From contig NC_080164.1 in NCBI RefSeq assembly GCF_950295315.1, positions 109,202,447 to 109,266,446 of the forward strand: a stretch of DNA of 64,000 nucleotides, read 5' to 3'. The stretch's first letter is position 1, and each line of letters opens with the position of its first letter. Below are positions 1,776 through 55,850 of this stretch, in pieces. The notes beneath the pieces were generated by a model that was given only the letters and a program-made list of their open reading frames with translations, did not search any database and was not told where the DNA came from. The stretch is from Erinaceus europaeus. Lineage: Eukaryota; Chordata; Mammalia; Eulipotyphla; Erinaceidae. Position numbers and translations under genes: made by a program.

Positions 1776-2850
1776 TGTGATAAAATAATAATAATAAAAA
1801 CCTCCCTAGCTTAACCTATCTCTTCTAATCTGTTCAATTTGCCTGAAGTGAAATAGAAGTTAAAATGAGCAAAAATGTTGCTTCCATTTCCTCCTTTCTA
1901 TACAAATGAACAAACTGGTCTCACACATATTAGGGTCACAAATTGAAAATTGAAATATTAATAAAAGAAGACAAGCAAATGTCACTATGAAAGGGTGAAA
2001 AGGTAGGAAATGTGTCATCTTCCAAGGAAAAGAAAATCAAAATAGATAAGAAAAAAAAATGACTGTTAGGACAAAAGCAATAAGCATGAAGCCTAGGTAT
2101 AAAAATGTTTAATGCCTGGACTACGCAGCTAGTCCATTCATATGCCTCTAGGACAGAAATGTGAAGATTGAGCTAGGCTTTTCAGCATATAAAGTAATAC
2201 CCACATTTTGGTTTGTTTTGAAAGTTCCTGGAGTCCATTTATTCTTCAAGAAAGTAATAAAATATGGTGGTAGCAGACTCCACATTCAGTGTTTTCCAAA
2301 TATTTTAGTGCTACCTATTCAGTTAACTAAGTGGCTTTATTTTCTTTAAAGACAAAGAAAGTAGTTATTCCAGAAAATCAAATCAGCTCTTCTTCCCAGT
2401 GCACCCAGTGACCATTCTAGTGCATTAATGGTGCCCTCCTAGGGTCAGTTTAGGTTAAATTAGGAGCTCTTATGCAGTCTCTGAGTGATGACTGGGTCAC
2501 AAAGTCTAGAAATGTCTTAAGATCTGTAGGCTTCATATTGAATTTTGATTCTACCATCTTGGTGGCTGACTGTTTGGAGGTTTATCATTTCTACAGCATT
2601 CCCTGCTGAGTACAATACCTTGGACTCAGGAAACATGTCCTGAGCAGAGTCTTGGGGCAAACATTCAATAAAGTCTAACTCCAAAGAGAAAGTAACAATT
2701 TGCACCGACAAAGCACTTAGTCAGAAAAGGACTTTTTTCAGATGTCATTATAATCACTGAAACATGCCATTCTAGCTATAAAAGTCAAGGGTGCTTTACA
2801 ATTAACACAATATCCATCACTTTCTGTGTATTGTAAGCCCTTTGGATGTG
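1776..2850. other. No gene seen; AT-rich unique DNA
   Basis: Low-complexity AT-rich sequence with no SINE core, L1 motif or convincing coding pattern. Open frames at 2161-2349 (+) and 2517-2711 (-) are about 60 codons and resemble nothing I know. Confidence 0.5.
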
Positions 2851-2853
2851 TGA

Positions 2854-2855
<2 letters not shown>

Positions 2856-2906
<51 letters not shown>
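2856..2906. repeat. (GA)n microsatellite
   Basis: Pure GA repeat of about 25 units. Confidence 0.97.
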
Positions 2907-2908
<2 letters not shown>

Positions 2909-3034
2909 TTACACAATGCTAGAGACTTTAGACGGATCTTACAGAATGATGTCCCTTGGGTACCTTGAAATTGTACTACCTAAAGGCTGACCCATTCAAA
3001 AGCTGCCATTTTGTTGCCAACATTCTTTTGTATG

Positions 3035-3515
3035 TGTGTTTTAATTTTTTATAAGTGATTTAATGTTGACTTACAAAACTACAAGACAACAGGGGTACCA
3101 CTTCACACCATCCCCACCACCAGAGTTTTGGATCCCTATTCTCTCCATTAGAAGTTATAGCAGTTCTCCCAAGGTTGTATAGATATGGGTTAACTATTAT
3201 TTCTTCAACTATATGCTATATTTGTATATATTTTCCTCTTTTTCCCTCTATCTTCCATCTTCATCTTTCCAAGTCACACCTCCAAATGTCTTTTTTTCCC
3301 TCCTTTATTTTCAGGTCCTGATGGAGTTGGAGTTTAGAGCCCTCTGATAATCTTCCCACTATCACTTCTCTCACATTGGGATTTTGAACCAAAATTCTTT
3401 ATGGGGTGCAGAATGAGGGAGTTCTGGATTTTGTGATCTGGGCATTAGCAGGTTGATCCATACCCCCAGCCTGTTTTTTGTCTTTCCCTACTGGGGTGGT
3501 TGCCAACATCCATTA
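3035..3515 (-). mobile_element. L1 3'UTR remnant (type I-like), minus strand, old
   Basis: The reverse complement resembles the end of the type I 3'UTR. 'aggggtaccacttcacacc' corresponds to the 'gtggagttgtacccctc' region, and 'atccatacccccagcctg... tccctactgggg' to the 'ctagggaaagagagaggcag... gggagtatgga' region. It is strongly diverged from the copies at 33050-33440 and 59700-60055. Confidence 0.65.
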
Positions 3516-11583: not shown

Positions 11584-12930
11584 GGGGGGCGGAGCCAAGA
11601 TGACAACTGAAAAGCAGCTGCTGGCATGAGCTCTGAAAACAACTGCTAGAAAGCCTTAGAGATCCTGGCCAGTCACTTTCAAAGCCAGCAATAAGCAGCT
11701 CCTGACAGCTTTCAACCTGATCTGTTGACTGGCTATGGAAGAAGGGCAAATGCTAGAAGAAGAAGAAGAAGAAGAAGAAGTGGGACAAGGAAGGAAGCGT
11801 TCTAAACATGAGACCAAGGAAGTGACTATAATTGTATATGGGTTAAAAATTACAGCAAAAAGAAAGGAAATTTTTTGATTATTTCTTTCTGCCCCCCTCT
11901 CCCCATAACCAGACACTGGGGATAGGGAGCTGCTGCTAGCAGTCTCCCCACTGAGCTCCTTTCTTTACCAAGATTCCTGGCTCATCAGGGGTGCCATTCC
12001 AATTCTGCTTCTTTCTAAATACCTAGGCTATTTTTTTTTTTCTCTGAGTAAGGGACTTAGGCCCAATTGGAGTGACAATCAGATGATAATGCAGGCCTCA
12101 CCCAGCCTGGGAAAGACTGCTTGGAAGTTTATTTATTTATTTAGTTAGTTAGTTTTGTTTTTTTCTTTCTCAATCAGTTGTCTAGACTCATACATGTGCT
12201 AACTGGGAGCTGTCCAAGCTGCAGACCCACTGATTGGGCTTTTTACTCTGCTCTATTTTATTATTACTATTATATATACACGCATATCCCTTTGCCCCAC
12301 CTCCCTCAGGTTGACCAAAATTAACTCTTAGTATACTTTCCATTGTTGAGCGACGAGATGTCTTACTCATTGTGAGAGAAACTTGTATCACTCTTCATAC
12401 CTCCTCTATCCACTCTCACCCTTCTCCTGCCTCCAACCCAATTAAAAAAAAAACAAACTTTCCTTTAACTGCTTTTATTTACTGCTTTCATCTTTTCTTT
12501 TCTCTCTTTTTTCCCACTGTCTTCCTTTCTTCATTCCTCCTTCCTCTGCTTTTTGAATTCACTGATACACATTTGTGAACTATTTCCGGGTAAAAATATG
12601 ACTCAGAGTGGACTCTCTTTGAGTGTGTCTCAGCTCTGCTTCCATTTCTTCTCTTGCTACGCCTATAATTTACAGTGGACAGTATATTTACATAATTGCC
12701 TATTCTTGCTATCCCTTTTTTTCCTTTCTCTTTCTTTTTCATTTGGATTTGGTTGCTAGTTTTTCTTCAACTGGAGACATTGTGGGGCTAACTGGTATTG
12801 GTTAAACTGCTTCAGTCCTTGCTTTAATTACTATTGTAATTTCAGAGGGTGGTGACTACATTTGTCATAAAGGTATTTAGTACAACAACTGAGGAAAAAC
12901 AGAACATAAAAATAAGAAACATATTAAAAA
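11584..12930 (+). mobile_element. L1-A: 5'UTR of a near full-length type I L1
   Basis: Begins 'ggggggcggagccaagatgac', strongly reminiscent of mammalian L1 5' ends, then 'gcagctgctggcatgagctc'. A short (AGA)n lies at 11757-11777. It shares the landmarks listed for the 6.7-kb copy up to the ORF1 start. L1-A runs from here to about 19360. Flanking 'AATTAT' at both ends is a possible but weak 6-bp TSD. Confidence 0.88.
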
Positions 12931-52039: not shown

Positions 52040-53025
52040 GAAATATTGGAAAAATGAACAAGGCCAAAAGTCCAGATAAAAGTTCCCCCAAAGGTTGAAG
52101 CACAGAACAATGAAATCAACATCCAAAATCTAGTTAAGGAATTAATCACAGGAGTGAGGAAATAATTTGCAAGTATAGTCATCAGAAATGGGGAAACAAA
52201 AACGAAAAAAGAAATGGGGAAACAACAAGTGAGACTCTGGAAGAAAATACTAATTATCTCAAGGTAATTAGAGAGGTAAAAGCAGAAATAGCTGATCTAA
52301 GAACACAACTAGCTAAACAACCTAAAACAGTATCAGAACAGGGTAACAAAATTGCTGAGCTACAGAAAACAGTAAAGGGGAGAGAGAATAGAATAAATGA
52401 GGCTGAAAACAGAATTAGCAAGATCAAGGATGAATTAGAGACAACTAAGAAATAAGTAAGAGATCTCAAAAAAGAGATTAAGAGATACTAAAAATAACAC
52501 CAGAGTCCTATGGGATAACTTCAAAAGAAGTAACATATGCATTATTGGCTTACCAGAGGAAGAAAGAGAGGGAGGGGAAGAAAGTATTCTACAGGATATA
52601 ATAGCTGAGATCTTCTCTATTCTAGACAACATAAAAGACATAAAAGTTCAAGAAGCCCAGAGGGTGTCAAACAGAATTAACCCAGACTTAAAGACACCAT
52701 AACACATCATATTTAGAATAGAAAGTAATCAGGATAAAGAAAGGGTCCTAAAGACTGCAAGAGAAAAATAAAGATTCACCTACAGAAGAAAACCCATTAA
52801 GATTAGCAGCAGATTTCTCCACATAAACACTACAGGCCAGAAGAGAATGGCAAGACATCTATTGACTGTTCAATCAGAAAGGCTCTCCACCAAGACTACT
52901 GTATCTGGCTAGACTGTCATTTAGACTAGATGGAGGCATAAAAACCTTCTCAGACAAGTAACAGTTGAAAGAATCAACTATCACCAAGCCTGCCCTGAAA
53001 GAAGTTCTGAAATGTTTTCTATAAA
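52040..53025 (+). pseudogene. L1-E ORF1, broken
   Basis: It begins near 'aaaatgaacaaggccaaaag' and has the type II coiled coil ('ctagctaaacaacctaaaacag', 'gaaaacagaattagcaagatc'). The RRM region follows ('cttaccagaggaagaaagagagg', 'aagaagcccagagggtgtc'). The C-terminus ('gtctgaaatgttttctataa'-like) ends near 53025. Numerous stops and frameshifts leave no long frame. Confidence 0.85.
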
Positions 53026-53369
53026 CAGTCATACCACCATAAATAGGGCATATACCAGAACACTATAAAAAATAATAATGGAAATATCTTAAAATATCTT
53101 CAATATGTGATATCAATAAATACCAATGGCCTGAATTCACCTATTAAAAGACACAGAGTAGAATAGATGAGAAAACACAACCTAACAATATGCTGTCTGC
53201 AGGAAAACCACCTAACACAACAAGATAAACACGGACTCAAAGTGAAAGGATGGAAAACTATTACACAAGCCAATGCCCCACAAAAATGAGCAGGAACAGC
53301 AATTCTCATATCAGACACAATACATTTTAAAATAAATAAAATTTAAAAAGATAGGGATGGACATTCCTT

Positions 53370-53961
53370 CTTCTTCTAGCGTTTGCCCTTCCTCCGTAGC
53401 CAGTCAACAGCGTCAGGTTGAGCCTGATGTAAAGTTTCGAGACCTCCTTTGAATCTGGAGAGGTGGCAGTCGTTGACTATGTGGGTCATAGTCTGTCTGT
53501 AGCCGCAGGGGCAGTTCGGGTCATCTCTGGCTCCCCAGCGATGGAACATAGCGGTGCACCGGCCATGGCCTGTTCAATAACGATTGAGGAGGGCCCAATC
53601 ATAACGTGCTAGGTCAAAGCCGGGTTGACGCTTGCAGGGGTCTGTGATGAGGTGTTTGTTCTTTACCTCAGCTGACTGCCAACTCTGTTTCCAAGAGACT
53701 GGAACAGAGAAGTTCAGTGTAGGCATAGGGGACCAGATTGGGTGACGAGACGTCAAGCGTTGGACAGGGTGGGCGAAGATATCCGCGTATATTGGCAGGT
53801 CCAGTCGAGTGTAGACGTGGGAAATGAACTTAGATGATGTCGCATCCCGACGAATATCTGGAGGGGCGATGTTGCTAAGAACTGGCAGCCATGGAACCAG
53901 GGTGGAACGGATGGTTCCAGAAATTATCCTCATGGAGGAATGTAATTTAGAATCGACCAAG
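53370..53961 (-). mobile_element. Non-L1 non-LTR retrotransposon fragment, CpG-rich, 12-bp TSD
   Basis: On the minus strand one frame runs 53960-53574 (128 codons) and, after a single TGA, continues in the same frame to a TAG at about 53376-53378. Visible motifs are NIAPPDIRRDATSSKF, DLPIYADIFAHPVQRLTSR, a C-x-C-x7-H-x4-C motif (CPCGYRQTMTHIVNDC) and GGLETLH near the end. This layout is typical of the region after the RT in jockey/CR1/RTE-like elements, not L1. The stop codon is followed at once by a (GAA)n-like tail, with no poly(A). The flanks are TGGACATTCCTT at 53358-53369 and 53962-53973. About 28 CpGs in 592 bp contrast with almost none in the flanking L1. It is 5'-truncated. Confidence 0.85.
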
Positions 53962-55850
53962 TGGACATTCCTTAATGCTCAGAGTATCAACCAATCAAGA
54001 GGTCTTAGCAATTATTAATATCTATGCACCCAATGAGAAGCCATCTAAATACATCAAACATCTACTGAAAGAGCTACAGCAATATATTAACAGCAACACA
54101 ATAATAGTAAGTGACTTCAACACCCCACTCTCTCAACTTAACAGATCATCCAGGTAGAAAATCAGTAATGAAATGAGGGAGCTAAATGAGGAGATAGGTA
54201 AACTAGAACTATTGGACATTTTCAGAGTCATTCACCCAAAGAGACTGGAATACACATTTTACTCAAGTCCACATGGGTCATTCTCAAGGATGGATCATAT
54301 CTTTGTGATGCCACAAAGACAGCATCAGCAAATGCAAGGGCATTGAAATCATCCCAAGCATCTTCTCAGACCACAGTGGAATTAAACTAACACTTAACAA
54401 TAAACAAAAGATTAGTAATAGTCCCAAAATGTAGAAGCTCAATAGTATACTATTTACCAACTACTGGTTAAAAGGAAAAATAAAGGAAGAAATCAAAATG
54501 TTTCGAGAGTTCAATGAAAATGAAGACACAAGCTATCAAAATATTTGGGACACAGCTAAGGTAGTACTGAAAGGGAAGTTCATAGCCATACAAGCACACA
54601 TTAGGAAACAAGAAAAATCTCAAATAAACAACCTGATTGCACACCTTCAAAACCTAGAAGAAGAAGAAAAAAGGAGCCCTAAAGCAGCCAGAAGGACAGA
54701 AATAACTAAAGTTAGGAAAGAAAAATAACACTGAAAATAAGAAAACCATACAAAAGATCAACAAAAGTAAATGTTGGTTATTTGAAAGAGAACCTGGAAG
54801 AAATGGAAAAGTTCCTAGGTGCCTAAAAACTTCTAAAATTAAATAAAGAGTAACTAGATAATATAAACAGACCCATCACAGCCAACGAAATTGAAACAGT
54901 TATGAAAAACCTTCCCAAGAATAGAAGACATGGACCAGATAGTTTTACAAATGAATTGTACAATAAATTCAAGGAAGAGTTAATACCTCTACTTTTAAAT
55001 GTCTCAAGAAAATTTAAGACACAGGAATACTCTCTTACAGCTTCTATGAAGCCAACATCACTCTGATATGCAAGGATGGAATAATATATGTAAATCAGTC
55101 AGTGTGATCCACCACATCAATAAGTAAAAGACCAAAAACCATATGGTTATATCAATAGATGCAGAGAAAGCTTTTGACAATATCCAACATCCCTTTATGA
55201 TCACTACAAAAACACTACAAAAATAGTAATAGATGGAAAATCCCTCAAAATAGTGGAGTCTCTCTCTATATATATAGCAAACCTACAGCCAACATCATAC
55301 CCAATGGATGGAAATCTGGAAACATTTCCCCTCAGATCAGGTACTAGACAGGGATGACCACTATCACCATTACTATTCAACATAGTGTTGGAAGTTCTTG
55401 CCATAGCAATCAGACAGATGCAAGGAATTAAAGGGATACAGATTTGAAGAGAAGAAGTCAAACTCTCCCTATTTGCAGATGACATGATAGTATACATAGA
55501 AAAACCTATGGAATCCAGCAAGAAACTTTTGGAAATCATCAGGCAATAAGTAATATGTCAGGCTAAAATTTAACATTCAAAAGTTAGTGGCATTCCTTTA
55601 TGAAGCACTAAGTTAGAAGAGCATGAAATCCAGAAATCAATTCATTTTACAATAGCAAAAAAAAAACAAACAATAAACCTAACCTAAAAAGTGTATACCT
55701 GTATACTGAAAATTATGAGTCATTACTCAAGGAAACAGAAAAAGACACAAAGAATTATAAAGATACTCTGTGTTCATGTGTTGGAAGAATTAAAATCATT
55801 AAAATCATTAAAATGAATATACTACCCAGAGCCATATAAAAATTTAATAT

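Follow-up and report, generated by a model that had tools for sequence, protein, structure and literature searches.

The window, the whole 64,000-nucleotide stretch of hedgehog DNA that was analysed, carries a host L1 whose ORF2 frame is interrupted by a minus-strand insert. The insert is the 3' end of a non-L1 LINE, bounded by a target-site duplication. The features of this locus are:

53347-54157, plus strand: frame of the host L1 ORF2 endonuclease region, split by the insert (from the frame and the reconstructed empty site)
53358-53369, no strand: left copy of the target-site duplication, TGGACATTCCTT, 12 bp, perfect
53370-53961, minus strand: 5'-truncated LINE copy, equivalent to positions 2487-3078 of the 3078-bp full-length reference copy
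53370-53375, minus strand: GAA-type tail, merging with the duplication (begins AAG on the minus strand)
53376-53378, minus strand: TAG stop codon directly before the tail, leaving no real 3' UTR
53379-53961, minus strand: C-terminal part of the single LINE frame, with a C-x-C-x7-H-x4-C motif
53571-53573, minus strand: in-frame TGA of the insert, CGA in 28 of 39 readable copies
53962-53973, no strand: right copy of the target-site duplication, TGGACATTCCTT, 12 bp, perfect

The original prediction described a 592-bp minus-strand insert with a perfect 12-bp duplication, and this description is borne out. The 12-mer TGGACATTCCTT occurs in the window only at the two sites listed (0.03 occurrences expected from shuffles), and rebuilding the empty site from the flanks and one copy of the duplication restores an open L1 ORF2-like frame (...DRDGHSLMLRVSTNQEVLAIINIYAPNEKPSKYIK...) that crosses the site. 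Also confirmed is the composition, predicted as about 28 CpGs and even GC inside a CpG-poor L1: the insert has 28 CpGs, a CpG observed/expected ratio of 0.72 and 52% GC, versus 0.03 and 35.5% in the flanks (52801-53357 and 53974-54500). The minus-strand frames 53574-53978 and 53376-53573 are in the same phase, with one TGA between them. This position is readable in 39 of 40 copies, with CGA in 28, GGA in 5, TGA in 3 (including the window copy) and CAA in 3. Because CGA is the commonest codon there, the TGA of the window copy is likely due to CpG decay, the explanation first offered for it. The motif was correctly placed in the minus-strand frame, as was the stop immediately before a GAA-type tail. 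A Pfam search of the C-terminal part of the frame that lies in the insert returned no significant domain.

The insert was rightly called a fragment, but it is not a lone 592-bp unit: 592 bp marks a point of 5' truncation in an element of about 3.08 kb. Its reading as the 3' end of a recent, jockey-like, non-L1 LINE stands, and the proposed horizontal transfer is plausible. Features that go beyond that first description are the many copies, the complete element, the predicted 5' ribozyme and a short internally deleted partner in the same window.

Copies, anatomy and age of the LINE family

A search with the insert covered the genome it comes from (2.72 Gb, 1172 contigs). All 40 scored matches, the window copy included, are 97-100% identical and 36 span all 592 bases; this set is ranked by coverage of the query and is no unbiased survey of length. 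The preliminary candidate figures of the genome searches (2797, 2376 and 1049) are not copy counts. Every one of the 39 other copies extends further upstream than the window copy, which rules out a family of fixed 592-bp units. A fixed unit of about 798 bp was ruled out as well, as the L002/L009 copy alone begins there within this match set.

A longer copy led to the endonuclease end of the element. Used as a query against the genome, this end yielded 40 scored candidates in 41 matched pieces, with the query copy among them. Twenty loci were cut from the result, and the 5' boundary of one (L070) is common to the 19 others within about 6 bases. Complete copies, extended with adjacent sequence (n = 10), are 3063-3079 bp long; the frame is open throughout in one of the ten, with 995 codons counted from the upstream stop. 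The layout comprises a leader of 91 nt with the HDV-like fold at 1-74, an ATG at 92 and a single frame to a TAG, directly followed by the GAA repeat, so that there is almost no 3' UTR. The encoded protein of about 1000 residues consists of an AP endonuclease, a reverse transcriptase (RT) and a terminal CCHC-like motif (Pfam RVT_1, 5e-29; Exo_endo_phos_2, 5e-12; Exo_endo_phos, 3e-11). An ncbifam search of the protein returned general RT and exonuclease families only, and the solved structures most like it, at low similarity, are the RTs of L1 and R2.

Target-site duplications were evaluated with a strict test, passed by 14 of 43 copies and by 2 of 835 swapped-flank controls; the other 29 copies fail it. 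Most duplications are close to 12 bp. Among the 14 passing copies, the duplication is 12 bp long in 7, T is found at -2 in 13 and A at +1 in 12. The nick preference is T(C/T)↓A (arrow, nick), unlike that of L1, whose target site is TT↓AAAA. In L060 and L061 the 5' portion of the element is inverted relative to the 3' portion that it adjoins, the pattern of twin priming. The inverted portion reaches position 1 in both loci, an independent mark of the RNA 5' end that would place it at the predicted ribozyme cut. Two further loci, L065 and L073, were ruled out as 5' inversions since both parts lie on one strand. L065 is a LINE copy broken by an insertion of about 280 bp, and L073 has an internal deletion between reference positions 1001 and 2183, so other internal deletions arise too. 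The element is a LINE, with AP endonuclease and RT domains, target-site duplications, 5' truncation and two 5' inversions.

Could the sequences derive from a parasite or prey organism that contaminated the assembly? A metagenomic protein (P0039, see below) carries the same LINE family, as such a source would predict, but the scored copies of three genome searches are spread over 24 numbered contigs, many of them chromosome-sized, the window copy interrupts host L1, and many copies are bordered by duplications of the sequence around them. We consider contamination extremely improbable.

The element had been described as recent, in agreement with an identity of at least 97% in all 40 scored matches and a mean non-CpG divergence of about 0.6%. 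Measured from the column majority, this divergence has a mean of 0.0061 over the 40 3' copies and is 0.0096 in the window copy. The 5' set of 20 has a median of 0.0102 and a mean of 0.0369, the latter raised because L060, L061, L067 and L073 are not collinear after about 1 kb. The mammalian neutral rate is about 2-4 per billion years per site. At this rate the family would be a few million years old, an estimate from sampled best matches that lean young. LINE copies met by chance in the window and in the fetched flanks share 93-97% identity with the reference copy, a figure that counts CpG sites.

Relatives and origin

The closest database protein is the metagenomic fragment P0039 (95% identity over 43% of the query). 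The next relatives are also metagenomic proteins, and the best full-length one is 58% identical among the best 120 of 174 matches listed. Named relatives within the same 120 are 38-43% identical and come from Cordylochernes (pseudoscorpion), Phlebotomus (sandfly), Diaphorina (psyllid), Petrolisthes (porcelain crab) and the fish Diretmus. In a tree of 44 rows the LINE falls within a metagenomic clade of 17 rows (SH-aLRT 100), separate from the six rows that represent named arthropods and fish. This tree holds database relatives, without reference clades of I, Jockey or others. The element likely belongs to the I/Jockey group, a label that draws on its relatives and on recall.

P0039, on a contig of 2072 bp, is 94-97% identical to six of ten copies, those matched in one piece. 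It was rejected as evidence of a donor, being as close to the copies as the copies are to each other; it is probably host DNA in a metagenome, with a donor also possible. Three protein scans of viral contigs and two pattern scans, run for a viral carrier or relatives, gave no useful lead. In a scan of genome contigs the only match, at 30%, was a protein encoded by a Flavobacteriales bin contig (L088), which is probably eukaryotic DNA that strayed into this bacterial bin.

The LINE was likely acquired horizontally from another animal lineage. The relatives and the tree fit an outside origin but name no donor, the nearest named relative being 43% identical. The same LINE and its short partner could instead descend vertically from an ancient mammalian I/Jockey lineage kept at low copy, with a burst in the host lineage only. 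Relatives that span arthropods and a fish indicate an old clade, and the 4,476 I-Jockey copies in a table for the African hedgehog, in the available text of PMC12026660, suggest that the family may predate one species. Against this, no more diverged LINE copy was found in the window or fetched flanks, where chance-met copies keep the high identity given above, and no mammal is named in the best 120 of 174 protein matches listed (a weak point, as such proteins are often masked). We regard vertical descent as unlikely while giving it real weight, and proceed with horizontal acquisition as the preferred origin.

The 5' leader and the short internally deleted partner

We predict that the LINE leader contains an HDV-like ribozyme, cut 5' of P1 at the first base of the element. 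The nested double-pseudoknot pattern P1-P4 with the presumed catalytic C in J4/2 is found as a sequence pattern: P1 pairs 1-7 with 30-36, P2 11-16 with 65-70 and P3 17-19 with 27-29, P4 lies around 44-46/55-57, and J4/2 reads CTGA. HDV-like ribozymes are described in R2, R4, L1-type and RTE LINEs in the available text of PMC3774820. In an Rfam search of a 121-base stretch from one LINE copy, RF00094 was the best of 4227 families (23.3 bits, E 0.082); the alignment covers the whole model (1-89) and puts the cut site at the LINE 5' boundary. Scans of seven of the ten fetched copies of the short partner (below) gave RF00094 the highest bit score in all seven (21.6-24.0 bits), at E-values of 0.9-2.6, with another, chance-looking family at a lower E-value in two of the seven. 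Every RF00094 score is below the gathering score (50), and Rfam scans of five whole loci, with E-values up to 1 listed, did not bring up HDV.

Run over 553,512 letters of locus sequence, a strict HDV-like descriptor has 13 matches, each at a 5' end of the family (one copy is counted twice, L048 being L058); it has 0 in the window or in 300 kb of order-1 random sequence. Ten of the 20 5' loci match it; the others fail mainly via changes in P1. Pairs were counted over 20 leaders (18 LINE and 2 short copies, after 2 LINE copies with indels were dropped). Each position of P2 and P3 is paired in 19-20 of 20, and the CTGA of J4/2 is present in all 20. Several of the 5' loci have P1 mismatches at positions 1-3, and the first base is not G in 4 of the 20 leaders counted. 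When one leader was shuffled 200,000 times by mononucleotide, no shuffle had P1, P2 and P3 jointly paired at their fixed positions. The descriptor, the pair list and this shuffle test were designed after the sequence had been seen, and the leader copies are too alike for real covariation.

The leader might be no ribozyme, its GGGATGC...GCATCCC being an internal promoter or packaging signal that merely resembles the HDV fold. The weak Rfam scores are compatible with such a signal, as is the minimum-energy fold of one LINE leader, an extended P1 hairpin without P2; a leader of the short family shows no better folding than shuffled sequence (z -0.98). Moreover, leaders of the Pr77 type can be promoter and ribozyme at once, according to the available text of PMC4748587. 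But the four helices, the CNRA motif and the cut position all coincide with the element boundary, and the two post hoc tests (descriptor matches nowhere else, no shuffle with P1, P2 and P3 paired) point the same way. We judge a leader of this other kind improbable and retain the predicted ribozyme.

The descriptor scan also matched inside L003 and L032, and the short element was found in this way. The copy in L003 is about 193 bp long and joins reference positions 1-143 to 3029-3078, followed by the GAA tail; other short copies join the leader to 3027-3078, with at most one base left over at the junction. The family, of about 190 bp, is thus the ribozyme end fused to the last ~50 nt of the LINE plus the tail. 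A genome search with the short element gave 40 scored matches (the query's own place included), all at least 98% identical, beginning at position 1-3 and crossing the junction. The junction and a diagnostic missing base are common to all ten fetched copies, in which target duplications, judged by eye, are clear in seven and doubtful in one, with the tail off the fetched stretch in two. Folding of the terminal 53-54 nt, in two short copies, revealed no distinctive structure. The window itself holds one copy:

11669-11780, plus strand: 5'-truncated short-partner copy, leader part and LINE 3' end meeting at about 11712-11714
11754-11756, plus strand: TAG of this copy, after which the GAA tail runs to about 11780

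The junction and the GAA tail of this copy match those of the copies across the genome; no target duplication was recognised by eye for it. Elsewhere, a LINE 3' fragment is nested in a short-partner copy in opposite orientation (L032, 98-1164), and about 225 bp separate a short copy from a truncated, oppositely oriented LINE copy (L003, 686-2092).

The short element is a SIDE: it has both ends of its partner LINE, lacks machinery of its own and has its own target duplications. Its SINE-like length and repeated presence would also suit an ordinary pol III SINE that had merely borrowed the LINE tail. That reading is highly unlikely, given that the 5' part is the LINE's own leader (the same 1-143) joined to the LINE 3' end and that no tRNA-like head was noticed on visual inspection. 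An unclassified SINE-type consensus of 196 bp, UnS-2_aAlb from Atelerix, is listed in Table A1 of PMC12026660 (as available) and has about the length of the short partner.

The observed core consists of near-identical copies, a sharp common 5' end, an endonuclease-RT frame, a stop followed by a GAA tail, duplications and a short family with the two ends of the LINE. We think it probable that a young, multicopy LINE of about 3.08 kb, likely of the I/Jockey group and likely acquired horizontally, gave rise to the insert as one of its 5'-truncated copies; this LINE has a predicted ribozyme-cut 5' end and a derivative of about 190 bp that it likely mobilises. The family would have come from another animal lineage. 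The LINE would be copied out of read-through transcripts, its RNA being freed by the ribozyme in the leader; its endonuclease would nick T(C/T)↓A sites, and its enzyme would recognise the GAA tail and the last ~50 nt. The short element may borrow this machinery.

In a mammal one would expect a short repeat to be a pol III SINE that rides on L1. The LINE and SIDE pair would follow a different logic, that of a foreign LINE with its own target choice, GAA tail and ribozyme leader, and of a SIDE that would be a parasite reduced to the two ends required by the LINE machinery. The broader claim, which we hold in even balance, is that a mammal has a recently, perhaps still, active arthropod-type LINE, gained by horizontal transfer and relying on an HDV-like ribozyme, and that this LINE spawned a multicopy 190-bp ribozyme-headed SIDE needing neither a pol III promoter nor L1. 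If the ribozyme works, the genome would have many copies of a self-cleaving RNA and be a natural system for the spread of ribozyme-led retrotransposons. The young age and the host make the dates and donors of horizontal transfer directly testable.

Comparison with known systems

Arthropod jockey-like LINEs (from Phlebotomus, Diaphorina, Cordylochernes and Petrolisthes, with the fish Diretmus) also combine an AP endonuclease and an RT in one protein of about 1000 residues with a CCHC-like end. They differ in being only 38-43% identical, and the hedgehog LINE lives in an L1-bearing genome. The I-Jockey elements of the African hedgehog Atelerix, with 2.23 Mb listed for the copies counted above, are likened by class label alone; the available text of PMC12026660 has I-Jockey once, in that table, and the words "horizontal" and "transfer" 0 times. 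"Hedgehog" and "Erinaceus" have 0 occurrences in the main text of a vertebrate survey (PMC7070016). RTE1_Sar of the common shrew is likewise a LINE horizontally transferred into a eulipotyphlan, but it is an RTE, likely from nematodes, and its authors found none in hedgehog reads (PMC6542046, available text).

Self-cleaving RNA has precedents in mammals, one of them in a LINE. The CPEB3 ribozyme is an example (PMC8233481), unlike the present one in occupying a single intron, and the human LINE-1 ribozyme (PMC11620745) lies in a mammalian LINE but is twister-sister-like and belongs to L1. In the available text of these papers, neither ribozyme is said to form the leader of a non-L1 LINE accompanied by a SIDE. 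No HDV-like leader of a mammalian non-L1 LINE and no mammalian SIDE appears in the titles and opening parts of abstracts of the literature surveyed on ribozymes and SIDEs, a body mostly without subscription papers and preprints.

SIDEs were called rare in a 2019 paper that adds Lepidoptera to the hosts named before, which it gives as fruit flies, a mosquito and a trypanosome (PMC6740152, available text). The lepidopteran pair Persaeus/Zenon resembles ours in the success of an internally deleted partner of a LINE; it is unlike ours in being CR1, and "ribozyme" occurs 0 times in the same available text. In trypanosomatids, L1Tc and NARTc/SIDER are a LINE and a short derivative with a common HDV-like leader of about 77 nt (PMC4035085, available text), whereas that leader is also a promoter (PMC4748587, available text) and L1Tc has an RNase H. 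The R2 elements of Drosophila insert at a 28S rDNA site and belong to another LINE clade, unlike the hedgehog LINE at its dispersed sites, but R2 and its SIDEs share with the hedgehog pair a 5' HDV-like ribozyme and a short partner made of the ribozyme and the 3' end (PMC3414825, available text).
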